Virus record (IMG/VR): IMGVR_UViG_3300046713_000113
Coordinates: 1-36,543 of that record
Direction: 5' to 3' (one strand)
DNA: 36,543 nt
From: a virus
In this document: in pieces, positions 1 through 36,543 of the stretch
Layout: each line of letters starts with the position of its first letter
Numbering within the stretch: the first letter of the stretch is position 1
Translations under genes and position numbers: made by a program
The notes under the pieces: model-generated
The model's database searches: none
The model's input: the letters and a program-made list of their open reading frames with translations, nothing else
What the model was told of the DNA's origin: nothing

Positions 1-598
1 CTGCGGGCGGTTCGGCTTCGATGTCGTCGGGAACCTCGCGGGGGCCGCCCTCGACGTTCAGGATCGTCGGCACTTCGATCAAGTAGGGCACGGAGCAGAC
101 CATCAGGTTGCGTTCGCCTTCGATGCGCTGGCGGACCTGGCCGTTGCGCTCGGCGCCCATGTGGATGCCCGACGCGAACGGCTCGCCGGTGCCGGCGTCG
201 AGGCTCGGGTGCTGCATGATCGCCAGCCGTGCCGCCGAGGCGTACAGGCGGGCGAGCGCCTTCGCGTCCTCGATGGTGACCGAAGAGGCGATCGCCGACA
301 GCACGACGCCGTAGATGGCCGCGACGTTGCCTTCCTCCTCGACGACGGGGTCGCCTTCCATGCCCGGCGACTGGGCGATCAGCATCGGCAGCTGGTCCTC
401 GGGCCACTTCTGGGCAGCAGCGTCGGCGTGAGAGACACCGTATTCGAGGATGTCGGCGATGCCCGCCGGCCAGATGGTGCCGTCGGGGTCCTTGACGCGG
501 CGCACGTACTGGGCCGCCGCCGGCATCCAGTGGCGAAGGTGGGCGGTGAGCGCCGCCTCGACGTCAGAGCCGTCTGTCAGCGGCCCCCAGCCGCTCAT
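1..598 (-). CDS. Tail-terminator-like or minor tail protein (3' end outside window)
   Basis: A leftward reading frame opens at ATG 598 and stays open to the window edge, so only the first 199 residues are seen. The start overlaps the stop of the preceding 51-aa gene (GTATGA). The visible protein is soluble, Ala-rich and alpha/beta in character, with no signal peptide or membrane segment. I do not recognise a family motif. Position argues for a tail-completion role: in Mu-like and many siphovirus head modules the gene after the gpG-like completion protein encodes the tail terminator. That role is inference from gene order. Confidence 0.7.
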   Translation of the reverse strand, partial: MSGWGPLTDGSDVEAALTAHLRHWMPAAAQYVRRVKDPDGTIWPAGIADILEYGVSHADAAAQKWPEDQLPMLIAQSPGMEGDPVVEEEGNVAAIYGVVLSAIASSVTIEDAKALARLYASAARLAIMQHPSLDAGTGEPFASGIHMGAERNGQVRQRIEGERNLMVCSVPYLIEVPTILNVEGGPREVPDDIEAEPPA

Positions 599-6061: not shown

Positions 6062-6255
6062 CAGGCCGCGCCCTTGAAGAGGAAGCGCGCGGCGACCCGC
6101 GACGACTCGACGCGGATCATCTCGACGAGTTCGGCCTCGGTCAGGTCCGACGTGCGGCCCATGACGTAGCCGCGCCCCGGGCCGACGACGGGCGGGAACC
6201 GCCGACCAGTTGCCCGGTCGAGGTCCCCGCAGATGACGGCCCAGGGTCGCTCCAT
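6061..6255 (-). CDS. Hypothetical protein, 64 aa
   Basis: Coupled by 1-nt overlap to the gene upstream (TGATG at 6255) and by ATGA to the gene downstream. The product begins MERPWAVICGDLDRATGRRF, has a Gly/Pro middle and a helical C-terminus (EAELVEMIRVESSRVAARFL). It is small and basic, with no recognised domain. Confidence 0.6.
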   Translation of the reverse strand: MERPWAVICGDLDRATGRRFPPVVGPGRGYVMGRTSDLTEAELVEMIRVESSRVAARFLFKGAA

Positions 6256-6509
6256 CAGACGGCGACTCGGGTGAGCGTGAGGCGCGGCAAAACCTGAATC
6301 GTCTGATGGTGCTTGCCGTTGTTCATCGGGAAGGTGATCGACGTCAGGCGCCCGCTCTGGGCGTAGTCGGCGGTCGTGGCCTCCAGGACCTCGGCGAACT
6401 TCTCGCCCATCTGGAGCAGGTCGCCCTGCTGGACGTCCTCGGCCTGGACCTGCTCGGTGCGCGTTGCGGTGGTGGTCATCGTGTCCTCCGTTGATTGGCT
6501 GCGGTTCAT
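6255..6509 (-). CDS. Hypothetical protein with MNRSQ leader start, 84 aa (or 74 aa)
   Basis: Two starts are in frame. ATG 6509 (MNRSQSTEDT) lies 6 nt behind a perfect promoter, and ATG 6479 has GGAGG 5 nt upstream. The mature part has EDVQQGDLLQMGEKFAEVLE and ITFPMNNGKHHQTIQVLPR, suggesting a small beta-barrel-like fold. No family is recognised. The first 30 nt belong to a conserved leader repeated at 10309, 22564 and 33285, and in two of those copies the leader is out of frame with the gene. ATG 6479 may therefore be the main gene start. Confidence 0.6.
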   Translation of the reverse strand: MNRSQSTEDTMTTTATRTEQVQAEDVQQGDLLQMGEKFAEVLEATTADYAQSGRLTSITFPMNNGKHHQTIQVLPRLTLTRVAV

Positions 6510-6515
6510 GGCTTC

Positions 6516-6544
6516 AGCCTAGAGGGTTACTTGCGCTTTGTCAA
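6516..6544 (-). promoter_or_regulatory. Promoter TTGACA-17-TAGGCT over palindromic operator
   Basis: -35 TTGACA (6544-6539), 17-nt spacer and -10 TAGGCT (6521-6516), reading leftward. The -35 lies in the palindrome CTTGCGCTTTGTCAAG (6530-6545), shared with seven other sites. The upstream gene's stop TGA (6543-6541) is inside TTGACA. ATG 6509 is 6 nt past the -10. Confidence 0.8.
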
Positions 6545-6771
6545 GTGCTGGAGGCGCCAGCCTCGACCGCCGTTACGCCCGCCGCGGCTTCCAGGCTTTC
6601 GACATCTCGGCCCAGGTTGTTGATCTGCTGGATCGCGTCGACCGAGCGCACCGAGCAGCCCGCCGGCGGGTCGAGCTTGCGCAGCTGGGCGAGGGGGCAG
6701 AGGTCGGTCGGCTTCCAGGGGTCGCTGACTGCCCAGGCGTGGCGGTGCAGGATGCAGTAGCGGACCATCAT
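6541..6771 (-). CDS. Hypothetical protein, 76 aa
   Basis: ATG 6771 overlaps the stop of the preceding gene (ATGATG). The product begins MMVRYCILHRHAWAVSDPW and continues KPTDLCPLAQLRKLDPPAGC, then a helical tail ending GASST. The Cys and His spacing could bind a metal, but no known motif is met. The stop codon is the TGA of the -35 box of the promoter at 6516-6544, so gene and promoter overlap. Confidence 0.55.
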   Translation of the reverse strand: MMVRYCILHRHAWAVSDPWKPTDLCPLAQLRKLDPPAGCSVRSVDAIQQINNLGRDVESLEAAAGVTAVEAGASST

Positions 6772-7302: not shown

Positions 7303-7332
7303 ACCCTAGCGCGCTCACTGGCGCTTTGTCAA
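7303..7332 (-). promoter_or_regulatory. Promoter TTGACA-18-TAGGGT with operator variant
   Basis: -35 TTGACA (7332-7327), 18-nt spacer, -10 TAGGGT (7308-7303). The palindrome is CTGGCGCTTTGTCAAG (7318-7333), one base off the usual left arm. The stop of the 65-aa gene upstream (TGA 7331-7329) lies in the -35. A GTG 7 nt past the -10 would encode only nine residues. Confidence 0.75.
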
Positions 7333-7526
7333 GTGCGCCCGTTGACCTCGCGCTCGAAGGCCCGGTCGACGGCGTCCTCGCGGCGGCTCGCCCAGACCCA
7401 GGCGTAGGCGAGATTCATGCGTAGGTGAGCCAGGTACGTCATCGGCTCGAAGTGCGGGGCCGGCTCATAGAAGCGGGAGGGCACGAAGCCGTAGAAGAGG
7501 GCGCAGGCGATCGCTCGCCAGCGCAT
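7329..7526 (-). CDS. Hypothetical protein, 65 aa
   Basis: Starts at ATG 7526, overlapping the portal gene stop (TGATG), so it is coupled to portal translation. The product begins MRWRAIACALFYGFVPSRFY, a possible short hydrophobic helix, and continues into an Arg/Glu-rich helix (VWASRREDAVDRAFEREVNG). No family is recognised. Its stop codon is provided by the -35 TTGACA of the following promoter. Confidence 0.6.
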   Translation of the reverse strand: MRWRAIACALFYGFVPSRFYEPAPHFEPMTYLAHLRMNLAYAWVWASRREDAVDRAFEREVNGRT

Positions 7527-9979
7527 CAGTACACCGCGACCAGGGTGCCCCGGCAGCGCAGGCCGCCTTCGCATTCCACGTAGCCGCCGACCGGATAGGC
7601 GGTTTCGGCTTCCCCGAGCGTCGGCCATTCGGTGCCGTCGATGCCGTTGCAGGCCGAACACACGTTCTCGTCCAGAATCTCGGAGGCGTAGATTTCTTTC
7701 GGCCCGGCCGCCCGCATGTAGGCCCGGCGCCCGGCGTTGTAGGACTGCGAGGTCGCACCCCCCAGCTGCTCATTGAGCGCCGCATCCGACAGCCCGGTCA
7801 GATGCTCGCGCACCGCGGCGGCTGCGGCGGAGGGTTCGAGGGTGGAGACGGCGGCGGCTTTCTTGCTCGCCGACGCCGCCAGGCCCGAGGACAGCGTCAG
7901 CGAGGCCGCCTCGGCGCGTTCGCGGACCTGACCCGCCAGAGCAGCGGTGTCGGCTTCGGCGCCGCGGAAGGCCGCCCGCGCCTGCACCCCGACCTGGGCT
8001 TCATGCTCAGAGCGCGCCGACGCGACCCCTTCGGCCGCGATCGCCTGCATGGGCACGTCGAGGACGTCGACGTCGACGGGGTCGCAGGTCAGGGCGGCGA
8101 GGACGGCGGCGTCCCCTTCGGCGGCCTCGACCTCGGCGACCAGCTGCTCGACCTGCTGGGCCTGGCCCTCGCGGTAGGCGGCGATCAGGGCCTCGCGGCC
8201 GGTCGTGAAGGACGCCTCCATCGCGGCGAAGTTGACCTGCGCCGTGACCTCGAAGGCGAGCGGCTGGCGCTTCAGGTCGCGCGCCGGCAGTTCCAGGGCG
8301 ACGACGGGAACCAGGGTGTCACTTCCCCCCTTGCCCTTCGGCCCACGCAAGATGACACCCTCGGCGACCAGGGCGTCGCGGGCGCGCCGTGCCGTCTGGT
8401 TCTTCGGGTCGCTTCCGGCGGCGCGGGCCAGCTGCGGCCACGTCATCGGCGCCGTCAGGGCCGCGACGATCGACTCCGACAGGGCCGAGCGTTTGGGCTG
8501 GCGGTGTGTGCGCCCGCCTGCGCCCCCGGAGGCGAGCGGGCCACCTTCGTCAGGGGGCGGCGTTTCGGGGTCGGGAGGCGCCGGGGCAGGAGGCGTGGGG
8601 GGCGGTGCCTGTTCTTCGGCCTCGGCTGCGGCCTGCTGGCCGGGCACCTTCCAGCGCTCGCCGATGTAGGCGCGCAGTTCGGGGTCGACGGCGATCGCGC
8701 CCTTTTCGATCCCGACGGCGAGGTCGGCGAAGGCAAGCTCTTTTGTCTCGATGCGCGTGTAGGCGATCAGCGGGGCCTGCACGTCGGGGCCGTAGTTGCG
8801 CTTGACCAGGCGGTCGATGACCAGCTGCGTCATCTCGCAATACCAGTCGGCGATCGCGCCCTGATTCTCCAGGTAGGTGTCGACGAAGGTTTCCCCGAGC
8901 GCCCTGGCGCCGGTGCGCGCGTCGCCCCCGAGGTTGAACAGCAGCAGCACGAAGCCCTTCGCCATCTGCTCGTCGTGGTAGCGGATCGACCCGATCGTGT
9001 CGGGCAGCTGGCCTTCGACGCCGGCGATCCGCAGCTTGCCCGGGCCGGCGCCACCGCCGGTGGTCGCGGCGCGCAGTTCTTCGGCGCGCTGGGCGAGGGA
9101 TTCGATCTGCTCTTTGGAGGCCGCCGGGTCGACCTCAAACCACGGGATGCCCATCGCGTTGCGCTCATGCTTGACGGCGTCGACGCGGATCAGCGCGTCC
9201 TTGACCAGCCAGTCGCGGTAGCAGGCGCGCAGCATGGAGCGGCCGACCTGGTCGCCATCGTCGGCGGTGTCCCAGAGGTAGGTGATTAGCCGGTCGGCTT
9301 CGAGGACGCGGATCGCCCCACCGGCGGCGCCGGCGAGAATCTGCCCGCCGGTGTTGAAGCCACCGCGCAGCTGTTCGACCGCCTCCAGGTTGCCGTGTTC
9401 GTCGGTGCGGATACCGATGATCGACCGCGGCGGGCGGGTGCCGAGCTTGACCAGGTGCAGGAGGCCGTCGTCGCGAAGCTCTAGCAGTTCCTCGAAGTGG
9501 TAGTGGCCCTGGGTGAGCGCGCGCAGGGCGTGGCTCATGTGCTTGTCGTGGTTGAAGGCGCCGCGGCGGCGCGGCCCCTCGTCCTCGCCGCGGATCGGCA
9601 GGTTCAGGTCTTCGGCGATGTGGTCGACGACGTTGGGGTCGGCCTCATTGGGGTCGACTTCCCAGCGAAAGCGGCGGATCGGCAGCGTCGTCGCCAGGAT
9701 CAGCCCTTTCAACTCGGCGTCGGTTTCCATGCGTTCGATCTTCGTCACCGACGCCGGCCACTGAAGCTCGGGCGCGTACTCGCGGTCGTCGACGAAGTAG
9801 GCCCACTCGGGATGGTTGAAGCCGCCGGGCATCCCCAGGCCGGGCATGACGAGGCCCGGGATGCCTTCCTCTCTGGTTGGGGCGCCGCGCTGGGCGCCCT
9901 TGTCGACGGACGCTGCCTCGACGGGGCCACCACGGGCGGCGAGTCGGGCGCGGGCTGCTTCTACGGCGTCGGAGGGCAC
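7526..9979 (-). CDS. Portal protein fused to winged-helix segment and MuF-like domain
   Basis: An 817-aa protein. Residues about 60-450 are a portal of the DUF935/Mu gp29 kind: DAELKGLILATTLPIRRFRW, then YHFEELLELRDDGLLHLVKL, ADRLITYLWDT and RSMLRACYRDWLVKDALIR. A Pro-rich linker follows. Residues 498-558 read as a winged helix-turn-helix (TWPQLARAAGSDPKNQTARR, then ALVAEGVILRGPKGKGG). Residues about 580-817 resemble a MuF head-morphogenesis domain, with NAGRRAYMRAAG, CSAC (774, 777) and two further Cys (803, 809) that could bind zinc. Portal and MuF are separate genes in Mu. Start GTG 9979 has no good SD. Confidence 0.8.
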   Translation of the reverse strand: MPSDAVEAARARLAARGGPVEAASVDKGAQRGAPTREEGIPGLVMPGLGMPGGFNHPEWAYFVDDREYAPELQWPASVTKIERMETDAELKGLILATTLPIRRFRWEVDPNEADPNVVDHIAEDLNLPIRGEDEGPRRRGAFNHDKHMSHALRALTQGHYHFEELLELRDDGLLHLVKLGTRPPRSIIGIRTDEHGNLEAVEQLRGGFNTGGQILAGAAGGAIRVLEADRLITYLWDTADDGDQVGRSMLRACYRDWLVKDALIRVDAVKHERNAMGIPWFEVDPAASKEQIESLAQRAEELRAATTGGGAGPGKLRIAGVEGQLPDTIGSIRYHDEQMAKGFVLLLFNLGGDARTGARALGETFVDTYLENQGAIADWYCEMTQLVIDRLVKRNYGPDVQAPLIAYTRIETKELAFADLAVGIEKGAIAVDPELRAYIGERWKVPGQQAAAEAEEQAPPPTPPAPAPPDPETPPPDEGGPLASGGAGGRTHRQPKRSALSESIVAALTAPMTWPQLARAAGSDPKNQTARRARDALVAEGVILRGPKGKGGSDTLVPVVALELPARDLKRQPLAFEVTAQVNFAAMEASFTTGREALIAAYREGQAQQVEQLVAEVEAAEGDAAVLAALTCDPVDVDVLDVPMQAIAAEGVASARSEHEAQVGVQARAAFRGAEADTAALAGQVRERAEAASLTLSSGLAASASKKAAAVSTLEPSAAAAAVREHLTGLSDAALNEQLGGATSQSYNAGRRAYMRAAGPKEIYASEILDENVCSACNGIDGTEWPTLGEAETAYPVGGYVECEGGLRCRGTLVAVY

Positions 9980-10251: not shown

Positions 10252-10280
10252 ACCCTAGCACGGGATGCGGTGGTTGACAA
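10252..10280 (-). promoter_or_regulatory. Leftward promoter TTGTCA-17-TAGGGT (portal unit)
   Basis: -35 TTGTCA (10280-10275), 17-nt spacer, -10 TAGGGT (10257-10252). It is divergent from, and shares its -35 bases with, the rightward promoter at 10274-10302. It would feed the small ORF and the portal gene. Confidence 0.7.
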
Positions 10281-10302
10281 ACCGCAAGTGAGCAGCTAGC
10301 CT
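10274..10302 (+). promoter_or_regulatory. Rightward promoter TTGACA-17-TAGCCT over operator
   Basis: -35 TTGACA (10274-10279), 17-nt spacer, -10 TAGCCT (10297-10302), then ATG 10309 after 6 nt. The palindrome variant GTTGACAAACCGCAAG covers 10273-10288. This is the only rightward copy of the leader cassette. Confidence 0.8.
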
Positions 10303-10308
10303 AGAGGC

Positions 10309-10524
10309 ATGAACCGAAGCCAAACAGAAGGGACCACGATGAACGCCGAGCAGGTCAAGCAGCAGATGCAGGAGAGGATCACTCGCCACGCCGCCCGCCT
10401 CCAGCTTCCCGAGCATGAGGTCGCGGCCTGGTTCCTCGAAGGCGCCGAGCGCCAGCACCGCGAGGCCAGCGAGAACTTCCTCGCCTCCGACAAGCTGCTC
10501 ACCGCGGCGAAGGCGCTCGCCTGA
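10309..10524 (+). CDS. Hypothetical helical protein, 71 aa (or 61 aa)
   Basis: One of the few rightward genes. ATG 10309 opens the conserved leader (MNRSQTEGTT). A second in-frame ATG at 10339 follows GAAGGGACCACG. The product is helical and charged (EQVKQQMQERITRHAARLQL, then EVAAWFLEGAERQHREASEN). No family is recognised. Its stop overlaps the ATG of the peptidase gene (TGATGG), so the two are co-translated. Confidence 0.65.
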   Translation: MNRSQTEGTTMNAEQVKQQMQERITRHAARLQLPEHEVAAWFLEGAERQHREASENFLASDKLLTAAKALA

Positions 10525-13008: not shown

Positions 13009-13382
13009 CAGGCGGCCCCCACGCCCTGACGAAGGCGGACGTTACCGCCGCCACCCTCGTCGATGTCGAGGAAGAGGGTTTCGTCCGGCAGGTCAGCGAC
13101 CAGCCCGCCCGGGTTGAGCGCCTGGCCGCCTTCCTGGGTGCGAAGAGTCCAGCCGGCGATGTCTGGGTAGTCGGCCCCCGTGGCGCCGCTGCCCCTCATT
13201 GCGGCCCGCATTACGGCGTGGACCTTCTCGTTTGGGTTGCGGCGCACCTTGACTGGGAAACCGCTGACCACGACCTCGATCGTCGGGTATTCCTCGGCTG
13301 GCTTCGGGGGGGCGTGGTGCTTCTCCACGCGCTCGGCGAACGCTCGCAGGCCCTTGCTTATGCGCTTCCTCGCGGCGCCCAT
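13008..13382 (-). CDS. Ubiquitin-like beta-grasp protein (DUF2604-like), 124 aa
   Basis: I chose ATG 13382 (TGATG overlap); ATG 13400 would add six residues. A basic helical N-terminus precedes a domain at about 33-110: EEYPTIEVVVSGFPVKVRR, a helix EKVHAVMRAAMRG, then DIAGWTLRTQEGGQALNP and DETLFLDIDEGGGG. This strand-strand-helix-strand order with the W-x-L-R and LFL blocks is what I know of bacterial ubiquitin-like DUF2604 proteins. After GGGG (110-113) comes an 11-residue tail, so conjugation would need trimming. No E1, E2 or JAB peptidase gene is visible nearby. Confidence 0.6.
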   Translation of the reverse strand: MGAARKRISKGLRAFAERVEKHHAPPKPAEEYPTIEVVVSGFPVKVRRNPNEKVHAVMRAAMRGSGATGADYPDIAGWTLRTQEGGQALNPGGLVADLPDETLFLDIDEGGGGNVRLRQGVGAA

Positions 13383-13612
13383 CAGACGCGCTCGGGCCAT
13401 GCCCAGGTGTTCTCGCCACCCTCGGCGTCGTACTTGACGATGCCGGCGACCGGCTCAGGCGCGCAGTCGGGGGGGAAGGCGGTCAGTTTGACGGCGCCAG
13501 CCTCGGCATCCCAGACGTCGGTGATGGTGGCGGTGACCTCCATCTCGTCTTCGATGCCGGTCTGCGGGCGGACGTAGGTGACCTGACGGCCGATGCTGGG
13601 CAGCTGCTCCAC
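13382..13612 (-). CDS. Hypothetical phage beta-barrel protein, 76 aa
   Basis: GTG 13612 is chosen because AGAGGA lies 5-6 nt upstream; a TTG at 13639 is in frame but lies inside the operator. The product is beta-rich (IGRQVTYVRPQTGIEDEMEV, TATITDVWDAEAGAVKLTAF) and ends NTWAWPERV, a pattern common in small phage proteins of unknown function. It is the first gene of the unit starting at the 13646-13674 promoter. Confidence 0.6.
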   Translation of the reverse strand: MEQLPSIGRQVTYVRPQTGIEDEMEVTATITDVWDAEAGAVKLTAFPPDCAPEPVAGIVKYDAEGGENTWAWPERV

Positions 13613-13630: not shown

Positions 13631-13648
13631 GGTTGACAAAGCGCAACC
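13631..13648 (-). promoter_or_regulatory. Operator-like palindrome just downstream of a -10 box
   Basis: GGTTGCGCTTTGTCAACC on the leftward strand has arms GGTTG / CAACC, a full match where other copies have CTTG / CAAG. It overlaps the -10 and the predicted transcription start of the promoter at 13646-13674, a classic repressor position. Confidence 0.6.
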
Positions 13649-13674
13649 GTAGCGGCGCTACCACTTCGTGTCAA
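13646..13674 (-). promoter_or_regulatory. Leftward promoter TTGACA-17-TACGGT
   Basis: -35 TTGACA (13674-13669) lies in the last codons of the large terminase gene; spacer is 17 nt; -10 is TACGGT (13651-13646). The spacer holds the hairpin GTAGC/GCTAC (13649-13661). The operator palindrome follows directly. Confidence 0.65.
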
Positions 13675-15945: not shown

Positions 15946-16500
15946 CTAGGCGGCGGCTCCGTCGGTGCCGTCGGCGGTCGCGACCACAACCGGCTGGGTG
16001 TTGTCGTCGGCCTCGGCGTAGAGGTCCAGGCCCTCGACGCCCACGTCGGCGGTGTGCGCCTCACCCGCGGTGTCGCCCGCGTAGTGATAGAGCGTGGCAC
16101 CGTCGGGCGTGTCCAGCCCCGAGGGCACGAAGCCCTCCGGGGCCTCGCCGGCGAGCGTGTACAGCGGCTTCTCCGACGCCTCCGACGTGGTCGGCTCGGG
16201 CTGCCCGGCGCCTTCGGCGGGCGGCGTGGTGCCTTCGGTCGGCTGCTCGCCGCCTTCGGCTGCGGGCGCTTCGGCTCCGCCTTCGGCCGTGCCGCTGCCT
16301 TCGGGGGTCGCGGGCGGTGCGTCGGCCGGGATGGCTTCGACTTCGCCGACCTCGATGTTGGCAGGCGAGGACGCCGTCGGCGAGTTCACGACGATCTGGC
16401 TACCGGCCGGGATGTCGTAGGTGTACGGGATCGCGCCATCGGTCGAGTCGATGACGTCGACGGTGACCGTCTCGCCCGTGTTGCGGGTTCTGATTTGCAT
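15946..16500 (-). CDS. Acidic low-complexity protein, 184 aa
   Basis: ATG 16500 opens a beta-like N-terminal part (MQIRTRNTGETVTVDVID, IPYTYDIPAGSQIVVNSPT). A long Ala/Glu/Pro/Gly-rich disordered middle (about 70-120) follows, then a C-terminal segment (EKPLYTLAGEAPEGFVPSGL, DLYAEADDN). No family is recognised. It could be a virion-associated or scaffold-like protein, but this is not shown. It is first in the unit of the 16541-16569 promoter. Confidence 0.6.
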   Translation of the reverse strand: MQIRTRNTGETVTVDVIDSTDGAIPYTYDIPAGSQIVVNSPTASSPANIEVGEVEAIPADAPPATPEGSGTAEGGAEAPAAEGGEQPTEGTTPPAEGAGQPEPTTSEASEKPLYTLAGEAPEGFVPSGLDTPDGATLYHYAGDTAGEAHTADVGVEGLDLYAEADDNTQPVVVATADGTDGAAA

Positions 16501-16540: not shown

Positions 16541-16569
16541 AGCCTACGCGGTGGCTTGCGCTTTGTCAA
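16541..16569 (-). promoter_or_regulatory. Promoter TTGACA-17-TAGGCT over operator
   Basis: -35 TTGACA (16569-16564), 17-nt spacer, -10 TAGGCT (16546-16541). Palindrome variant CTTGCGCTTTGTCAAC spans 16555-16570. It lies inside the 3' end of the HNH gene, whose tail VDKAQATA and stop TAG are encoded by the promoter. Here the downstream leader has lost its ATG. Confidence 0.8.
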
Positions 16570-17104
16570 CGCGGCGTTTGTCGGCGCGAGCGCGGTTCTC
16601 GGCCCGTGTCTTCGCTCGGTGGCAGGGGACGCAGCGGCAGCGCAGGTTGTCGAGCGTATGCGGGCCTCCGTCCTCCAGGGGCACTTCGTGATCGGCCTCC
16701 CAGGGCGTCGCGTCGGTGCCGTCCATCTCGTCGCGCCCCTCGCAGACGATCCCGCAGTCGACGCAGGCGACGAGGCCGTGCGCGGCGCGCTCCCGGACCC
16801 GCACGGCGTGGCGAGTGTCCCAGGTGGTCGAGTTGGTCCAGGCCGTCAGGCAGTTCGTGGTGCCGACTTCATGCTCGTCCCCGTAGTGGTAGCGCCGGCG
16901 GGCGCGCCGGTAGTCGGTCTGGTCGACCAGCACGATCGGCTCCCCGCACCACCGGCAGACCCCCTTCGGGGCGTCGGGGCAGGCTGGCTTGCCTGTATGC
17001 AGCGGTCCTCGCCTCGGCGTAGGGACCGGCGGGCCGGGCGCAGGGGGCGGCGGTGCATCGCGGGCGGCCATCCGGGCCAGTGCCGCGGCGACCTCTGCCC
17101 TCAT
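16544..17104 (-). CDS. HNH endonuclease, 186 aa
   Basis: Start ATG 17104 overlaps the preceding stop (ATGA). After a Pro-rich N-terminus come CRWCGEPIVLVDQTDYRRAR, a middle C-x2-C (ACVDCGIVC) and the HNH core EADHEVPLEDGGPHTLDNLR followed by CRCVPCHRAKT. D-H, H-x-N and the flanking Cys pairs are the standard HNH nuclease layout with structural zinc. HNH genes beside terminase genes often assist packaging cleavage; it could also be a selfish nuclease. Its C-terminus VDKAQATA is encoded by the promoter element. Confidence 0.8.
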   Translation of the reverse strand: MRAEVAAALARMAARDAPPPPAPGPPVPTPRRGPLHTGKPACPDAPKGVCRWCGEPIVLVDQTDYRRARRRYHYGDEHEVGTTNCLTAWTNSTTWDTRHAVRVRERAAHGLVACVDCGIVCEGRDEMDGTDATPWEADHEVPLEDGGPHTLDNLRCRCVPCHRAKTRAENRARADKRRVDKAQATA

Positions 17105-20171: not shown

Positions 20172-20240
20172 TCACCCCAGCACCCACCATAGGAAGGCGA
20201 GCCAGCCAGCGACCGCGATCGCGACGAGGATCGTGGTCAT
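20172..20240 (-). CDS. 22-aa membrane peptide
   Basis: ATG 20240 overlaps the stop of the DUF5131 gene (ATGA) and the frame ends at 20172. The product is one hydrophobic helix (TTILVAIAVAGWLAFLWWVL). The coupling supports translation; function unknown. Too short for usual gene callers. Confidence 0.5.
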   Translation of the reverse strand: MTTILVAIAVAGWLAFLWWVLG

Positions 20241-21103
20241 AGCAGCGCCCCCTCGGGCACGTAGATCGGATTCGCGTCGAGGTCGGCGCGGTCCCAACTG
20301 ATAGGGAACTGATGGAAGGTGCGCCCGAGCGCGTCGACGCCCTGCCCGGGCCGGGCGGCGCTGACCTGCTTGAAGAAGAAAGCGGTCCCTGCTTCGGAGC
20401 AGGCGTGGCGCGCATCTTGCGCCCAGCCGAGGTTCATCTCTCGCCGGTCGGCGCCGCTCTCACCGCCCACGATCAGCCAGTCGATGCCGGTCAGGTCAAG
20501 CTCGGGCAGCTGCTCGCCGTCGGAGTAGCCGCGCCAGGACGGGACCGTCGTGCCCTCGCAGGGGTCCTCGGCGTCATAGAAGACCGGCCCGATCGCCGGC
20601 TCGTAGCTGATGAAACGCAGGAATGCAGGAATTCCTGCGAGAAGGCGCGCGCGGTCGGTGACGCGCCGGTCCTCGATCGACGTGCCCAGCCAGACGTTCG
20701 GGTAGCCGCGGCCCCAGTCGGCCGGCAGCATGGCCGCGATGTTCTCGGGGCGCTTCGTGAGCAGCTGGAAGTCGAGCCACGGGCAGGCGCGGATCAGCGC
20801 CCAGACGTCGTCGCGGGTTTCGTTGGGGACCGGCGCGTCCTCGAAGACGTCGGCGAGCGAGGCGCAGAACACCTTGCGCGGGGTCCGCTCCAGGGCGGCG
20901 ACGTGGTTCCAGGTCGGGACCTTCGCCCAGGTCGACTTGCCGGTGCGCGAGCGCTTGTCGACGGAGCCGAAGAGGTCGCGCCCCATGCGGTTCTGGATCA
21001 GCGTCTCGGCGTAGCAATGCTTGCAGCCCTGGCTGACCTTCGCGCAGCCCATCCAGGGGTTGAAGGTGTGATCCGTCCAGGCGATATTCGAGTTCTCGGC
21101 CAT
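20237..21103 (-). CDS. DUF5131 / Gp37-Gp68 family protein
   Basis: A 288-aa protein with the family hallmarks: WTDHTFNPWMGCAKVSQGCK followed by HCYAE (three Cys resembling a radical-SAM-type C-x6-C-x2-C); VFCASLADVFED; DFQLLTKRPENIAAMLP; NVWLGTSIEDRRVTDRARLL; FISYEPAIGPV; and WLIVGGESGADRREMN. The family is widespread in phages and is thought to be a divergent radical-SAM protein; its substrate is unknown. Beside a DNA methyltransferase it may act in DNA modification, which is inference. Confidence 0.8.
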   Translation of the reverse strand: MAENSNIAWTDHTFNPWMGCAKVSQGCKHCYAETLIQNRMGRDLFGSVDKRSRTGKSTWAKVPTWNHVAALERTPRKVFCASLADVFEDAPVPNETRDDVWALIRACPWLDFQLLTKRPENIAAMLPADWGRGYPNVWLGTSIEDRRVTDRARLLAGIPAFLRFISYEPAIGPVFYDAEDPCEGTTVPSWRGYSDGEQLPELDLTGIDWLIVGGESGADRREMNLGWAQDARHACSEAGTAFFFKQVSAARPGQGVDALGRTFHQFPISWDRADLDANPIYVPEGALL

Positions 21104-21551: not shown

Positions 21552-21592
21552 CAGACCCCCCCCCCCCCCGACGGTTTCGTCTCGGTCGGCAT
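21551..21592 (-). CDS. 13-aa mini-ORF with a 14-G run (MPTETKPSGGGGV)
   Basis: ATG 21592 overlaps the Toprim gene stop and its TGA overlaps ATG 21551 (TGATG at both ends). It contains an unbroken run of 14 G on this strand (21556-21569). With one more G it would read straight into the GroES-like gene. It may be a coupling peptide, a slippage switch, or a misread homopolymer. Confidence 0.35.
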   Translation of the reverse strand: MPTETKPSGGGGV

Positions 21593-22533
21593 CAGTCGAC
21601 GTCCTCGTCTTCGGCCTCGCCGAACTCGATGGACTCCAGGCGCTCGACGATCAGGTCGCGCTCGCGGTCGGCCTTCGCTTCGACCCGTTCCTGCGTCTCG
21701 GAATCGGTCCACTCGGCGAGGGCGTCGCGCACCGTCTCGGCGAGCAGGTCGGGCGGCATCGCCTCGGCCTGGCACGTCTCGTCGAGCCAGTTGACGGAGC
21801 GGCTGTCGCTCGACTTCGCCGGCGCCGTCGGCAGTTCATGCTCGGCGACCTGATCCTGGGTGAGGGCGACGCGGATCGGCTTGAACTTGTCTTCGAGGTC
21901 GGAGACGGAGATGTAGCCGTCCCCGGAGTGCCCGGCGATGAAATGCAGGGCGTCAGTGGTCATGGCGTCGAAGATCGACTCGCCGCTGGGGTCGTAGTCG
22001 CCGACGTGCAGGAAGATCGTCGGCTTGCTGAAGCGCAGGGCGCGCTGGGCGATTTCGTGCGTGACCGTGACCGACGAGAAGCCGCCGGTGCTGTAGACGC
22101 GGACGCCGAAGTCCTGCGCGACGCGCTCCAGCTGGGGCACCATGCCGCCCGCCTCGCACCACAACTCGATTCGATACTCCTGGCCCTCGCGGGTGTAGCG
22201 GTGGTAACCGCGGCCCGAATCCTTCAGGTCCTCCCAGAAGCTCGCCGGGTCGAGGTAGCCCCAGTCGCCGCCGGCGGTCGTGGTGCCGTCGTCGCGGATC
22301 ACGTCGAAGCCGATCATCTGGGCGCGACGGGCGCGGACCAGCTTCTCGCAGAGGTTCTTGTAGTCGCGCTCGGTCTTCGGGTAGTTGTAGGCGCCGACGA
22401 GCCGGTAGAAGATTTGCCGCGCCGTCATCGGCAGCTGCGCGCGGTATTCGTTCAGCACGGTCTGGACCTGGTCGATCAGGGCGACCGACTCGGCGTTGGG
22501 TTTCCAATCAGCGTAGCCGCGGGGCCGTGCCAT
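21592..22533 (-). CDS. Topoisomerase VI subunit A-like Toprim protein
   Basis: A 313-aa protein. The N-terminal half has a winged-helix look (LPMTARQIFYRLVGAYNYPK, EKLVRARRAQMIGFDVI). The Toprim part has Glu127 in ELWCEAGGM and DYDPSG (179-184), the D-x-D of TopoVI-A/Spo11-type Toprim domains. The acidic C-terminus lacks known motifs. A catalytic Tyr near residue 43 (FYRLV) is possible. Its role could be DNA cleavage or replication. GAAGGAG lies upstream of ATG 22533. Confidence 0.65.
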   Translation of the reverse strand: MARPRGYADWKPNAESVALIDQVQTVLNEYRAQLPMTARQIFYRLVGAYNYPKTERDYKNLCEKLVRARRAQMIGFDVIRDDGTTTAGGDWGYLDPASFWEDLKDSGRGYHRYTREGQEYRIELWCEAGGMVPQLERVAQDFGVRVYSTGGFSSVTVTHEIAQRALRFSKPTIFLHVGDYDPSGESIFDAMTTDALHFIAGHSGDGYISVSDLEDKFKPIRVALTQDQVAEHELPTAPAKSSDSRSVNWLDETCQAEAMPPDLLAETVRDALAEWTDSETQERVEAKADRERDLIVERLESIEFGEAEDEDVD

Positions 22534-22571: not shown

Positions 22572-22601
22572 ACGCTAACAGAAGGGCTTGCGGTTTGTCA
22601 A
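22572..22601 (-). promoter_or_regulatory. Promoter TTGACA-18-TAGCGT over operator
   Basis: -35 TTGACA (22601-22596), 18-nt spacer, -10 TAGCGT (22577-22572). Palindrome variant CTTGCGGTTTGTCAAG spans 22587-22602. The stop TGA of the HTH gene (22600-22598) lies inside the -35. It feeds the Toprim-DUF5131-methyltransferase unit. Confidence 0.7.
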
Positions 22602-22834
22602 GCGGCGGCTGCGGCGGCGCGCTGCTCGCGCTCGGCGGCGTCGGAGCGTTCTTTGGCGAAGCGCTCGACGTCACGGCGGAAGAAGAGGGGCGCCTTGTGT
22701 TTGCCCTGGAAGCAGATGGGAGGCGGGAAGTCGGGGTGATCGACCACCGAGGCGACGCCCTGGCGGCTGACCCCGACGATCGACGCTATCTCATAGCGGC
22801 CGACGATCGAGTTCGGCTGAGTCTCGGCTCTCAC
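22598..22834 (-). CDS. HTH (MerR/excisionase-like) DNA-binding protein, 78 aa
   Basis: GTG 22834 lies 7 nt behind a -10 box and there is no SD, so a leaderless start is likely. Residues 10-50 (SIVGRYEIASIVGVSRQGVA, SVVDHPDFPPPICFQGKHKA, then PLFFRRDVERFAKER) are the AlpA/MerR-type helix-turn-helix plus wing. The Ala-rich C-terminus ends at the next promoter. It lies between two copies of the operator, so it is a candidate regulator of this regulon or an excisionase-type protein. Confidence 0.7.
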   Translation of the reverse strand: MRAETQPNSIVGRYEIASIVGVSRQGVASVVDHPDFPPPICFQGKHKAPLFFRRDVERFAKERSDAAEREQRAAAAAA

Positions 22835-22841
22835 GCAGGCA

Positions 22842-22870
22842 ACTCTACTGCGTGGCTTGCGCTTGGTCAA
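22842..22870 (-). promoter_or_regulatory. Promoter TTGACC-17-TAGAGT over operator
   Basis: -35 TTGACC (22870-22865), 17-nt spacer, -10 TAGAGT (22847-22842). Palindrome variant CTTGCGCTTGGTCAAG spans 22856-22871. It lies inside the 3' end of the gene 22845-23444, whose tail LDQAQATQ and stop TAG are encoded by it. Drives the HTH gene. Confidence 0.75.
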
Positions 22871-23444
22871 GTGTGGGCGCCGGTCCCATGACCTCGCGGA
22901 TGCGCTCCAGGGGCGCGGCGTTGCAGCGGTTCTCGAACTGGTCGCGGGTGCCAAAACAAAGATGCCAGCCGTCGTTGCGCTTCTTCGTGCCGTTCTTGCG
23001 GACCGAGATGTAGGGGTCGAAGGCGATCCCGTCGACGGCGAGTTTGCAGACCGCCTCGGCGTGGGCCAGGCGCTCGGCCGCGTCGGTCGACCTGTCCTTG
23101 CCGGGCGCCGCCAGCTTCTCCAGGTGGGGGCGGATCATTTCAAAGCGGTCGAGCGTGAACTCCGACCGGGGGTGCTTGCAGGCGGTGCGCCAGTACTTGA
23201 AGACGCGCAGCGCCGCCGGCCAGACGGGCGATTCTTCGGCCTCGGCGTCCTTGTCGCGCTTCAGTTCGGCGTGGCGGGCGGCCCAGCCACGCACGTCGCG
23301 CTGGAGGCCGGCTATCTCGTCTTCGAGCTTCTGGACGAAGTCGCCCAGGACGCCGACGCGCATCCCATCGGGGTCGACGACGATCATCTCGGGCGCCATC
23401 GCCTCGGGGGCGGCGGCAAGGTGGCGGGCTGGCTCTGCGCTCAT
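22845..23444 (-). CDS. Hypothetical replication-region protein, 199 aa
   Basis: ATG 23444 overlaps the CHC2 gene stop (ATGA). A coiled-coil-prone part (FVQKLEDEIAGLQRDVRGWA) is followed by FKYWRTACKHPRSEFTLDRF then EMIRPHLEKLAAPGKD. Next come AVCKLAVDGIAFDPYISVRK and WHLCFGTRDQFENRCNAA. This resembles phage proteins I have seen beside primase-like genes, but no function is known. Its last eight residues are encoded by the promoter element. Confidence 0.6.
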   Translation of the reverse strand: MSAEPARHLAAAPEAMAPEMIVVDPDGMRVGVLGDFVQKLEDEIAGLQRDVRGWAARHAELKRDKDAEAEESPVWPAALRVFKYWRTACKHPRSEFTLDRFEMIRPHLEKLAAPGKDRSTDAAERLAHAEAVCKLAVDGIAFDPYISVRKNGTKKRNDGWHLCFGTRDQFENRCNAAPLERIREVMGPAPTLDQAQATQ

Positions 23445-24298
23445 GGAAAAACCTCCAGTAGGCGTTCGTGAATTCTTCGGAAGTCAGCGCCCGAGCGCGG
23501 CAGGTCCCAGAGGATGCCTGCTAGCTCATAGATGGAGCCGTAGGCTTCGCAGCCGTAGCAGCGCCAGCGCGTGTCGCGGCAATGAAAGGACGGGGTGCGC
23601 TCGTCGTGGCCGGGCAGGGGGCAGAGCAGGTAGCCGCCGCGGTTGGCCTCCGTGCCGGTGAGCCGGAAGACGTAGTCGATCGCCTCCAGGTTCAGCAGCC
23701 GCCCCTTCTCCCCGTCGAAGCCGTCGTTGACGATGCGCCCGCGTTCCTCGATGGCGCGGTCGCGGTAGGCCCGGTCGCGCCAGCGCTGCCCCCAGATTCG
23801 CCGCGCGCCTTCGCGCCAGAGGTCCCTGGGGTCGACCAGGAGGACGCCGGCGAAGAGGTCGTAGACGGTGAGGCTCAGTTCCGCGGCTTCGGCTTCCCTC
23901 TCTCTCGACCTGTCGCGCTGGGCCTCGGCGCGCTTACGGACCTCAGCCCAGAAGGCTGTTCGCGTGGCAGCTGGGGCGCGGTGGAATGCCGCCATCGCCT
24001 CGGCGCCCGGGCGGTTGGCCTCTTCTATGCCCGCCACAACATCAGCGAAAGTGATCCCCTGGCGGTGACCCTTCGATTTCTCGACACCGTCTTGCCCCGC
24101 TCGCGCCTCACTGGGCGCAGCGACCCGATGCCCCTCTGACGGGCTAGCAACCGGCGCAGGGTCCGCGACAGGCATGGTCAGCGGGCGTCGGCGGCGTCGA
24201 AAATCGAGGATGCCCCGACGTTCGACGTCGGGACGCGAATCCCAGCAGGGCACGTACCACTGGGCGATTTGTGTTTCTCGCCGCTCAAATGGGTACAA
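23441..24298 (-). CDS. CHC2 zinc-finger (primase-type) protein
   Basis: The open frame reaches TTG 24298 (285 aa), but ATG 24175 (MPVADPAPVAS) may be the start; no good SD supports either. The C-terminal 60 residues are a CHC2 zinc finger of bacterial primases: GGYLLCPLPGHDERTPSFHC then WRCYGCEAYGSIYELAGILW (C-x4-H...C-x2-C). No Toprim or helicase domain follows, so this is an isolated primase zinc finger, unlike full DnaG. The middle is a basic helical region. It may serve primer-site recognition together with host primase. Confidence 0.7.
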   Translation of the reverse strand: MYPFERRETQIAQWYVPCWDSRPDVERRGILDFRRRRRPLTMPVADPAPVASPSEGHRVAAPSEARAGQDGVEKSKGHRQGITFADVVAGIEEANRPGAEAMAAFHRAPAATRTAFWAEVRKRAEAQRDRSREREAEAAELSLTVYDLFAGVLLVDPRDLWREGARRIWGQRWRDRAYRDRAIEERGRIVNDGFDGEKGRLLNLEAIDYVFRLTGTEANRGGYLLCPLPGHDERTPSFHCRDTRWRCYGCEAYGSIYELAGILWDLPRSGADFRRIHERLLEVFP

Positions 24299-24335
24299 TT
24301 CCCGTGCTGATCATCGCTGACGGCACCTTAACACG

Positions 24336-24369
24336 AAGAGGCCGGCTCCCGCAAGGAAGTCGGCCTCTT
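24336..24369 (-). terminator. Strong hairpin between two leftward units
   Basis: AAGAGGCCGGCT (24336-24347) pairs with AGTCGGCCTCTT (24358-24369), 12 bp with one G-U pair and a 10-nt loop. On the leftward transcript it is followed by CGTGTT, not a real U run, so termination is probable but not certain. It lies 38 nt past the stop of the 127-aa gene. Confidence 0.55.
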
Positions 24370-24406
24370 GTGCGTCTCGGACTTTGCAGGGAAAAGCTGA
24401 AGCGAT

Positions 24407-24790
24407 CTAGGCGACTTTCTCCATCTGCATCAGCTTGAACTGATGCTCGCGCTCGACCTCGTTGACGTCGCCGGTCGCGTTGTTCATCTTGTGGATGACC
24501 GCGACCTTCGTGCAGCGGATACGGACCACCGCCTCGACGACGTCGCCTGGCTGGTACTCGCCGGCCGGAATGTCGATCTTGCCCCCGACCATTTTGGCCG
24601 TCGCCTTGTCGGGGTTTTTGCCGCCGATGACCAGCGACAGCTGGCCCTTGCCCTCTAGCTCGACCGGGGGCGGACCCTTCGCCTCGGTCTTCTCGCTGCC
24701 CTGCTCGTCGGAATGCTCGCCGTCGAGCGGTTCGCCGTTGCCGTTGCCTGATGCCGCCTTGCCTGCGGGTGGTGCCGCTGCGACTGCCAT
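24407..24790 (-). CDS. Hypothetical protein, 127 aa
   Basis: AGGAGG 8 nt before ATG 24790 is the best Shine-Dalgarno in the window. An Ala/Gly-rich disordered first 45 residues precede a beta-rich domain (GQLSLVIGGKNPDKATAKMV, DIPAGEYQPGDVVEAVVRIR) and a helix-like end (NNATGDVNEVEREHQFKLMQ). No family is recognised. A GATAAT box lies 20 nt upstream of the start. The strong SD suggests a high-level product, such as a DNA-binding accessory protein. Confidence 0.6.
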   Translation of the reverse strand: MAVAAAPPAGKAASGNGNGEPLDGEHSDEQGSEKTEAKGPPPVELEGKGQLSLVIGGKNPDKATAKMVGGKIDIPAGEYQPGDVVEAVVRIRCTKVAVIHKMNNATGDVNEVEREHQFKLMQMEKVA

Positions 24791-24920: not shown

Positions 24921-25015
24921 GCGCACGTAGCTCAGTGGTCAAACCGGCCTTCACGGGCTGGGAAGAGCGTGGCCCTTTCAAGGCCGAGGTCGCGGGTTCG
25001 ATTCCCGTCGTGCGC
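24921..25015 (+). tRNA. tRNA-Glu (anticodon TTC) with enlarged D-loop
   Basis: Acceptor GCGCACG (24921-24927) pairs with CGTGCGC (25009-25015). D-stem GCTC (24930-24933) pairs with GAGC (24965-24968). Anticodon stem TGGCC/GGCCG holds loop CTTTCAA with anticodon TTC (24977-24979). T-arm GCGGG-TTCGATT-CCCGT is normal and no CCA is encoded. The D-loop is 31 nt instead of about 8. The extra 23 nt (about 24939-24961) form their own hairpin, CCGGCC-TTCACG-GGCTGG. Without it the tRNA is a standard 72 nt. It is the only tRNA seen and runs against the neighbouring genes. Confidence 0.85.
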
Positions 25016-25096
25016 ATCGCCGCCGCTGGGGCACATGAAAGCTGGGCCGGGAGGCGAGTTGACCCGCCGAGCGACCCAGGCCCCGGCGGGGGCGAC
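25016..25096 (+). other. Gap between tRNA and resolvase gene
   Basis: No gene is seen. It holds a short GC hairpin GCCCC-GGCG-GGGGC (25080-25093), next to the resolvase stop. This may act as a weak terminator for either strand. Confidence 0.3.
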
Positions 25097-26361: not shown

Positions 26362-26694
26362 CTAGCCCGGCGCGTCGCCCCCGTCGTGAAGCGGCGCCAG
26401 GGACTTGATCGCATGCAAGATCGTCGAGTGGTGACGCCCGCCCAGCGCGCGCCCGATTTCCGGCGACGAGTAGCCGGCGACCTGGGCCTCGGCCGCAGCG
26501 ATCGCTCGGGCGCGGCAGATGTATTTGCGGCGGCTGGCCCCCTTCAGGTCCTCCCACTCGACCCCGAGGCTGCGCCCGACGCGGGCGAGCAGCTGCGGCA
26601 GGGATTCGTCGGGCTGGAGGGGACGCGGCGGCGGGTCGATCGGGATGACGGCGACGCCGGCGAGCGCCACGGCGTGATCCTCCCAGCCGCTCAC
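26362..26694 (-). CDS. DnaA domain IV-like DNA-binding protein, 110 aa
   Basis: GTG 26694 overlaps the preceding stop (GTGA). Residues 45-105 (LGVEWEDLKGASRRKYICRA, RAIAAAEAQVAGYSSPEIGR, then ALGGRHHSTILHAIKSLA) follow the DnaA C-terminal DNA-binding pattern: basic loop, long helix, HTH ending in G-x-H-H-S-T (DnaA has R-D-H-S-T). The AAA+ domain is absent. It may bind DnaA-box-like sites in phage or host DNA. Confidence 0.7.
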   Translation of the reverse strand: MSGWEDHAVALAGVAVIPIDPPPRPLQPDESLPQLLARVGRSLGVEWEDLKGASRRKYICRARAIAAAEAQVAGYSSPEIGRALGGRHHSTILHAIKSLAPLHDGGDAPG

Positions 26695-32781: not shown

Positions 32782-33047
32782 CAGCTGACCGCCTGCGTCA
32801 TTGTGGTTTCGCGGCCGGTTTCGATGTCGACCTCGCGCCACGGCCAGTCGATCCCTTCCTCGATGTCGGAGATGACCTGCGCGGCCTCGATGCCGACGAG
32901 GTCTTCGATCCGGGTGGCCGCCTCGTCGAGCGTCAGGTCGTCGTATTCGTCCTCGCGGTCGAGGTAGGGGAAGAGGTCGACGATCCGGTAGCGCTCGCCG
33001 TGGGCTGCCGCGATGCGGTGGAATTGCTGGCCTCGGTTCTCGGCCAT
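32781..33047 (-). CDS. Hypothetical protein, 88 aa
   Basis: ATG 33047 overlaps the preceding stop. MAENRGQQFHRIAAAHGERY, DLFPYLDREDEYDDLTLDEA, VISDIEEGIDWPWREVDIET. Very acidic. No family recognised. Confidence 0.55.
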   Translation of the reverse strand: MAENRGQQFHRIAAAHGERYRIVDLFPYLDREDEYDDLTLDEAATRIEDLVGIEAAQVISDIEEGIDWPWREVDIETGRETTMTQAVS

Positions 33048-33256
33048 CAGTCGGACCTCGTCGCGGCGATGTACTTCGCCTGGTTGATCGGGTCGACGGT
33101 GACCCGCACGACCTCGCGCTTGCCGAGCAGGGCGGCGATCTTCTCGCCGACGTAGGAAGGCTTCAGCGCCTCCATGTACTCGGTGACGACGGAGCGGCGC
33201 TTGCTGCCGTCGCCCATCTTGTGCCTGCGCGTGGTGCGGATTTCGTAGAAGAACAT
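33047..33256 (-). CDS. Hypothetical basic protein, 69 aa
   Basis: First gene of the 33.3-24.4 kb unit. ATG 33256 overlaps the leader peptide stop (TGATG) with AAGGGAG upstream. MFFYEIRTTRRHKMGDGSKR, SVVTEYMEALKPSYVGEKIA, VVRVTVDPINQAKYIAATR. No family recognised. Confidence 0.6.
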   Translation of the reverse strand: MFFYEIRTTRRHKMGDGSKRRSVVTEYMEALKPSYVGEKIAALLGKREVVRVTVDPINQAKYIAATRSD

Positions 33257-33285
33257 CAGCGACTCCCTTGTTGACTACGGCTCAT
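33256..33285 (-). CDS. Leader peptide MSRSQQGSR
   Basis: ATG 33285 is 6 nt behind the -10. The nine-residue frame ends in TGATG at the next gene's ATG, a coupling arrangement. It matches the leader copies at 6509, 10309 and 22564. Confidence 0.4.
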   Translation of the reverse strand: MSRSQQGSR

Positions 33286-33291
33286 GGCCGC

Positions 33292-33321
33292 AGCCTATCG
33301 GGTCTGCTTGCGCTTTGTCAA
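33292..33321 (-). promoter_or_regulatory. Promoter TTGACA-18-TAGGCT over operator
   Basis: -35 TTGACA (33321-33316), 18-nt spacer, -10 TAGGCT (33297-33292). Palindrome CTTGCGCTTTGTCAAG spans 33307-33322. It is the likely start of the DNA-metabolism transcript. Confidence 0.8.
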
Positions 33322-33334
33322 GTGCCACGAAGAA

Positions 33335-35652: not shown

Positions 35653-36096
35653 GTGACGTCCGACCTGGGGTTCGACAGTCTCATGGCCTCGCTGTCAGCG
35701 ATCGGCGCCGCATCTGTACTGCCCCTCCCGGGCGTCGACGAGCCGACATCGGCCCCCGACTACATGCGCCGCGCCCTGACGCTGCTGCGTGAGCGCGACC
35801 TCCCCTTCGAGTCTGCCTGGTCCTCGGCGATCAACCGCATCCAGGCCCCGCAGGGTGAGGGCGGCCTCGTCGATGATCCGGCGCTGCGCTCCCTGGTCCT
35901 CGAAGAACGGACGCTGCTCGAAGAGGACCGGCCCCTCTGGCGGGCAGCCTATGAGCAGCGCCCCGTAGCGGCCCATGAGATTCACAACCGCGACCGCGCG
36001 GCCTGGCGGCGCATCGACCCCGCCGTCGGCGCCGCCCTCGACCGCCTCGATGCGCGGGCAGGACATCCGGCGGCGCTCGCGAAACAGGCGGCATGA
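35653..36096 (+). CDS. Hypothetical protein, 147 aa
   Basis: GTG 35653 opens MTSDLGFDSLMASLSAIGAA, then ALTLLRERDLPFESAWSSAI, NRIQAPQGEGGLVDDPALRS and LEEDRPLWRAAYEQRPV. It is all-helical. 'FESAWSSAINRI' and the arrangement resemble small regulatory proteins, but none is identified. It is the first gene of the rightward unit. Confidence 0.55.
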   Translation: MTSDLGFDSLMASLSAIGAASVLPLPGVDEPTSAPDYMRRALTLLRERDLPFESAWSSAINRIQAPQGEGGLVDDPALRSLVLEERTLLEEDRPLWRAAYEQRPVAAHEIHNRDRAAWRRIDPAVGAALDRLDARAGHPAALAKQAA

Positions 36097-36272: not shown

Positions 36273-36543
36273 GTGAAGCGACTCGCCCTGGCGGCGGTCG
36301 CGGCCCTTGCATTTGCCGTGCTGGCCGCGCCCGCCGTCTCAGAGAACACCACGCACCACCATACGCCCCCAGAAGCCCGATGTCTGCTGCCGCATTTTGA
36401 AGTCTTCGCCGCGCAGGTCTGGGCGCCGAAGCGATGGCACCGCGGCGCCCCCCCGGCCTCGACGATCGCGGCCGCGCACCGGCGGATCGGCTGCGCCCCC
36501 ACGGCCAGCCACCGCCACGCCATGAAGGCGATCTGGCGCGCCG
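36273..36543 (+). CDS. Secreted protein (3' end outside window)
   Basis: GTG 36273 has AGGAG 6 nt upstream. A signal peptide (MKRLALAAVAALAFAVLAAP then AVSE) is followed by a His/Pro-rich short linker and PEARCLLPHFEVFAAQVWAP, then STIAAAHRRIGCAPTASHRH. The two Cys may pair. The visible 90 residues have no recognisable enzymatic motif. It may be an exported wall-acting or surface protein. Confidence 0.6.
   Translation, partial: MKRLALAAVAALAFAVLAAPAVSENTTHHHTPPEARCLLPHFEVFAAQVWAPKRWHRGAPPASTIAAAHRRIGCAPTASHRHAMKAIWRA

Follow-up and report, generated by a model that had tools for sequence, protein, structure and literature searches.

The question raised by this locus is whether a short sequence that recurs over the -35 boxes of a phage genome serves as an operator, and which protein would read it. 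The window analysed here is the complete IMG/VR record IMGVR_UViG_3300046713_000113, a linear fragment of 36,543 bases from an uncultured phage. It encodes a portal protein, a head maturation protease, a major capsid protein and a terminase, as well as an Erf-like annealing protein, an exonuclease and a RusA-like resolvase. For positions 1-25000, no DNA match to named phages or plasmids was found. Since the named-phage relatives of the portal and the capsid protein are mostly Gordonia, Mycobacterium, Arthrobacter and Corynebacterium phages, an actinobacterial host is likely. The window was compared with the close relatives G001, G003, G005 and G009 (50-53 kb, three of the four with end repeats; written G1, G3 and so on below), the close fragments G2 and G4, and the more distant syntenic relatives G11, G13, G14, G16 and G31 (about 50-54% portal identity). 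The viral contigs G006, G007 and G008 carry one exact site each, which looks like chance, and were excluded. The window also contains a DUF5131 protein (20237-21103, minus strand, E 1.2e-65), a small protein matching the DnaA C-terminal DNA-binding domain (26362-26670, minus strand, PF08299, E 4e-14), a tRNA-Ala (GGC) gene at 24921-25016 on the plus strand, opposite to the surrounding genes, and a plus-strand gene at 35683-36096, likewise on the opposite strand, that is conserved in 9 of 10 motif genomes and has a helical model without a structural match.

The whole window was scanned with the pattern CTTGCGCTTTGTCAAG, allowing up to three mismatches. Nine matches were obtained where 0.13 are expected, and 100 shuffled sequences gave at most one match each. 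Seven of the nine overlap a -35 box that is followed, after a spacer of 17-18 nt, by a TAGnnT -10 box. The eight coordinates listed by the initial annotation were recovered, with 13631 shifted to 13632. The ninth match at 27889 has three mismatches, lies inside a gene without a -10 box, and is probably due to chance. In the four close relatives of about 50 kb, 7-10 sites per genome were found, many at corresponding places. The five larger genomes of the close group hold 44 sites with up to two mismatches against 0.6 expected, and the site was present in 27 of 27 strict TTGACA-16..18-TAnnnT promoters in five related phages of this group. Among viral contigs, every record with three or more motif hits belongs to this phage group.

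On the minus strand, the site at 33307-33322 covers the -35 (33316-33321) of the early operon, with the -10 TAGGCT at 33292-33297, a leader ATG at 33285 and the first gene at 33047-33256; it is found at the same place in G1, G3, G5 and G9. The site at 22587-22602 (-35 22596-22601, -10 TAGCGT 22572-22577) precedes the gene 21592-22533, and the one at 16555-16570 (-35 16564-16569, -10 TAGGCT 16541-16546), which has equivalents in G1, G3, G9 and G2, precedes the gene 15946-16500. At 6530-6545, the -35 is at 6539-6544, the -10 TAGGCT at 6516-6521 and an ATG at 6509, in front of the gene 6255-6479 (or 6509). A GCCAG variant occupies 7318-7333 (-35 7327-7332, -10 TAGGGT 7303-7308), and its GCCA is kept in G1, G2, G3 and G4. 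These four promoters and that of the early operon are on the minus strand, as is the site at 22856-22871, which has the -10 TAGAGT at 22842-22847 and a leaderless GTG at 22834. Its -35 is TTGACC, a variant that also occurs in G1, G3, G5 and G9, so the earlier claim of seven promoters with the site on TTGACA holds for the seven -35 boxes, their spacers and TAGnnT but not for the sequence of this -35.

Two sites lie at least partly outside a spacer. The site at 10273-10288 is common to two divergent promoters, as had been proposed. On the plus strand, it covers the -35 at 10274-10279, followed by the -10 TAGCCT at 10297-10302 and an ATG at 10309, whereas the minus-strand promoter TTGTCA-17-TAGGGT points towards the portal gene 7526-9979 and has the site upstream of and over its -35. 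Both directions were found in the seven relatives G1, G2, G3, G4, G5, G9 and G12, with a reverse promoter of the form TTGTCA-17/18-TAGnnT. The site at 13632-13647 on the minus strand had been placed just downstream of a -10 box, and indeed it sits on the -10 end and the start site of a TTGACA-17-TACGGT promoter (-35 13669-13674, -10 13646-13651) in front of the gene 13382-13612. In G1, the site and the boxes of this promoter are kept and the spacer has diverged.

The predicted promoters were analysed for start codons. An ATG or GTG was located exactly 6 or 7 nt past the -10 box in 46 of 67 promoters, and 5-8 nt past it in 49 of 67 (p about 1e-38 against base frequencies). This fits real promoters with leaderless transcripts. 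Many of the leaderless open reading frames are about 9-10 codons long, beginning with MNRSQ in the close group; in 14 they are in frame with a second start led by a Shine-Dalgarno sequence, and in 7 they stop at the second start. In the window, such leaders lie at the predicted transcript starts 6509-6480, 10309-10338, 22564 and 33285-33256, with others in the relatives. The leader spelling after the -10 is also specific to the group or the genome. Promoter-like sequences without the site were observed at 36482 in G11 and 31795 in G13, followed by a common TTGAGCGGCG-like sequence; they lie in the counterparts of a non-coding stretch with a terminator-like hairpin at 24040-24406 (minus strand), behind the gene 24407-24790.

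Behind the 7318 promoter, which would drive its transcription, about 245 nt of conserved non-coding sequence extend from 7292 down to 7048 on the minus strand. This stretch matched the manA RNA (RF01745) with 30.6 bits and E 2.3e-6, below the gathering score of 55.2, and its counterpart in G2 reached 32.6 bits with Rfam. The sequence is conserved in G1, G2, G3 and G4, and in an alignment of five sequences 26 of 87 predicted pairs have changes on both sides. A leader peptide in this place (VVRGTWPRE; VVGGTRPRE in G2 and G4) was considered and reread as the first hairpin of the manA-like RNA; one of the seven stop-coupled leaders is of this manA type. The manA RNA has been described from marine sequences, gamma-proteobacteria and cyanophages (PMC2864571), and the RNA found here looks like an actinophage branch of it.

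How the site is spelled in related phages bears on its function. In the distant syntenic relatives, the TTG-based -35 and the -10 are kept, whereas the next eight bases differ and each phage repeats its own version at its own promoters. Five group spellings were found, TTGACAAASCGCAAG, TTGACAGCGGACTAG (promoters of G11), TTGACACGCGTCCACTA (G13), TTGACGCGCGGCAAS (G14 and G31) and TTGCCGATCGGCAAC (G16), and each group's motif is nearly confined to its own genomes; the more distant relatives G19, G22-G25 and G30 gave stray hits only. The identity of the eight bases past the -35 was 0.90 within a genome and 0.91 between genomes of one group, but 0.48 between groups. For the remainder of the spacer, the corresponding values were 0.43, 0.39 and 0.30, and for the -10 box 0.66, 0.72 and 0.61. 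The initial annotation had called the site palindromic. In this phage, that applies to the outer CTTG...CAAG arms (4 of 8 half-positions), and the remainder is asymmetric. The dyad, weak here, is much clearer in the relatives when the pairs are counted by hand: TTGCCGATCGGCAAC of G16 forms a perfect 16-bp palindrome including a flanking G, G14 and G31 are short of one pair, and in G13 two pairs are mismatched within a dyad of 20 bp. All groups share the spacing TTG-N8-CNA. The dyad symmetry suggests that the site is bound by a dimer.

The reading of dispersed operators for a DNA-binding protein, put forward in the initial annotation, is well supported, since the extension is kept within a genome and changes as a set between related phages, whereas -35, -10 and layout stay constant. 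The sites outside any spacer, at 13632 and at the minus-strand promoter of 10273, also support it. Judged from these comparisons, the most probable function of the repeated site is that of an operator for a phage protein that co-evolves with it.

The gene at 22598-22834 on the minus strand encodes a candidate for this protein. It is a predicted winged-helix HTH protein of 78 amino acids resembling the MerR, AlpA and excisionase types. It matched PHROG excisionase and regulator families with E about 1e-6, and no Pfam family above its cut-off. Its AF2 model has a pLDDT of 86, and the top Foldseek hits, which are weak (best PDB E 0.016), were the MerR-family proteins RacA, CadR and BldC together with phage HTH structures. 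Among named phages, no protein match was found for the HTH protein, the exonuclease or 22845-23444. All nine motif genomes in which the region is covered carry the HTH gene (the window, G1, G3, G5, G9, G11, G13, G16 and G31); in G14, the region probably lies past the contig end, with a neighbouring gene family at 889-1350 on the minus strand. In all nine, the gene is leaderless and directly follows a site whose spelling departs from the consensus of its own genome: five of them have TTGACC, G11 has GGG in place of GGA, G13 GCGGCC in place of GCGTCC, G16 TTGACGG in place of TTGCCGA, and G31 TTGCCCCGCGTCGAC. This constant arrangement fits autoregulation. We also compared protein and operator divergence, and here the major capsid protein tracks the operator as well as the HTH protein does (Spearman 0.69 vs 0.61), so covariation was not decisive for picking the regulator. 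Since other gene families have the same distribution and the distance correlation is indecisive, the assignment to the HTH protein, the best candidate regulator found, is a strong lead but no proof.

The sites could be operators for another phage protein, such as the small, conserved ones encoded at 24407-24790 or 35683-36096 or one outside the fragment. The family of 24407-24790 occurs in 10 of 10 motif genomes and in no others, and the covariation comparison did not favour the HTH protein. However, neither of the two has a recognisable DNA-binding fold, and 35683-36096, with its helical model and no DNA-binding match, was dropped as a rival. The DnaA-C-like protein at 26362-26670 was found only in the window and G1. 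Among the candidates, only the HTH gene immediately follows its own copy of the site in each of the genomes. We therefore regard a different phage regulator as unlikely. Far less probable still is a host protein or host sigma factor that reads the extension. The motif is joined to sigma-70-type boxes, but a search of 85,462 prokaryotic species for the motif plus its -10 turned up nine hits, scattered and never more than one per species, so it is not a host promoter type. This largely refutes a host reader; in addition, related phages differ in the motif and at least one promoter, at 36482 in G11, is without it. Just as remote is the explanation that promoter modules spread by copying within each genome, in which case the likeness would reflect recent duplication without a bound protein. 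The genome-specific leader sequence past the -10 would agree with copying, but the spacer remainder is 43% alike within a genome when the eight bases are 90% alike, and the sites are kept at corresponding places across diverged genomes.

Whether the bound protein would repress or activate was considered separately. MerR-type proteins often activate from the spacer, which is established knowledge, and the site adjoins the -35 in nearly all promoters. The protein might thus be an activator, or a factor redirecting the polymerase, that needs the bases beside the -35, with promoters working only once it is made; the poorer -35 of the G16 promoters, TTGCCG, would agree with this. Most -35 boxes, however, are full consensus with spacers of 17-18 nt and need no help. 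The 13632 site is located at the start site, the 10273 minus-strand promoter has the site upstream of and over its -35, and an activator would be needed for the early operon and even for expression of the HTH gene. Activation is accordingly quite improbable. Repression is the likelier mode, given that the boxes match the consensus and are optimally spaced, that one site lies at a start point and that another is common to divergent promoters.

On balance, we favour a mechanism in which the 78-aa winged-helix protein, as the most likely binder, would occupy the repeated site as a dimer across the -35, or at 13632 across the start site, and would block the host RNA polymerase at almost every strong promoter of the phage. 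This would include the promoter of the HTH gene, where the deviant site would set the level of the protein. The sequence itself shows the sites and the promoter boxes, that both are kept in place, that each genome has its own spelling and that the HTH gene always goes with its own copy of the site. From this we infer binding by the HTH protein, its dimeric form and repression by binding.

The initial annotation had drawn a parallel to temperate actinophages. The temperate part of it was not borne out, as no integrase (PF00589, PF00239) was found in the window, which is a fragment, or in G1, G3, G5 and G9, and no ParA (PF13614) in ten records, which makes the need for a global off switch less evident. 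A shut-off of early genes, or an unusual immunity or dormancy of an unintegrated phage, is therefore a possible use, and lysogeny outside the chromosome by other means is conceivable. More tentatively, phages in which integrase and ParA were not found may have nearly all strong promoters, those of early as well as structural genes, controlled by a single tiny, autoregulated protein of the MerR/AlpA type. Its operator code, which has diversified into at least five spellings while the promoter frame stayed fixed, could then define immunity groups or act as a global off switch in lytic-looking phages. This would be a case of promoter control across the whole genome in phages that seemingly lack the usual lysogeny genes. 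The phages form a natural series in which operator spellings and candidate regulators vary together while the promoter design stays fixed. Protein-DNA specificity can be tested directly on such a series, using short DNA and small proteins, and the series also supplies candidate switchable promoters for actinobacteria.

The closest comparison is with the cluster A mycobacteriophages L5 and TipsytheTRex, whose repressor, a 183-aa two-domain monomer, binds 20-30 asymmetric 13-bp operators or stoperators, mostly off promoters (PMC6550527, PMC9283540). As in cluster A, many copies of a short site are spread over the genome, some over promoters, and the spelling differs between related phages, in cluster A along with the phage repressor. 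In contrast, the close group has 7-10 sites per genome, almost all of which belong to promoters with a -10 box 17-18 nt away, and they are dyad-like, with a weak dyad in this phage, a perfect palindrome in G16 and near-perfect ones in G14 and G31. When the TipsytheTRex repressor was compared by tblastn with the ten motif genomes, no homolog of this repressor type was found (best E 0.51). Of the defining features of the cluster A stoperator system that were tested, two are thus absent here, namely the repressor homolog and the number and placement of the sites.

The repressor gp33 of the temperate mycobacteriophage BPs, which has an integrase, recognises a 12-bp palindrome and a variable half site in five regions (PMC4557955). 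The likeness lies in a small phage repressor and palindromic operators at several promoters genome-wide; unlike in BPs, a single site covers the -35 of almost all strong promoters in the present phages, and no integrase was found. Cluster O mycobacteriophages such as Corndog carry more than 30 copies of 17-bp repeats, mostly off promoters, for which a transcriptional role was judged unlikely (PMC4351075). They share the dyad repeats and the lack of an integrase or known lysogeny, but the repeat described here is tied to the -35. The SAS/ESAS of cluster K are also genome-wide repeats tied to gene starts and confined to one phage group, but are located at the ribosome-binding site, 3-7 bp upstream of the start codon (PMC3203893), and not over the -35. 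The repressor of the Streptomyces phage phiC31, known here through the literature summary in PMC4557955, likewise has many dispersed sites in an actinophage. The general features of dispersed repressor operators, an above-chance repeat over promoter elements and a specificity that shifts as a set between phages, are present in this phage group.
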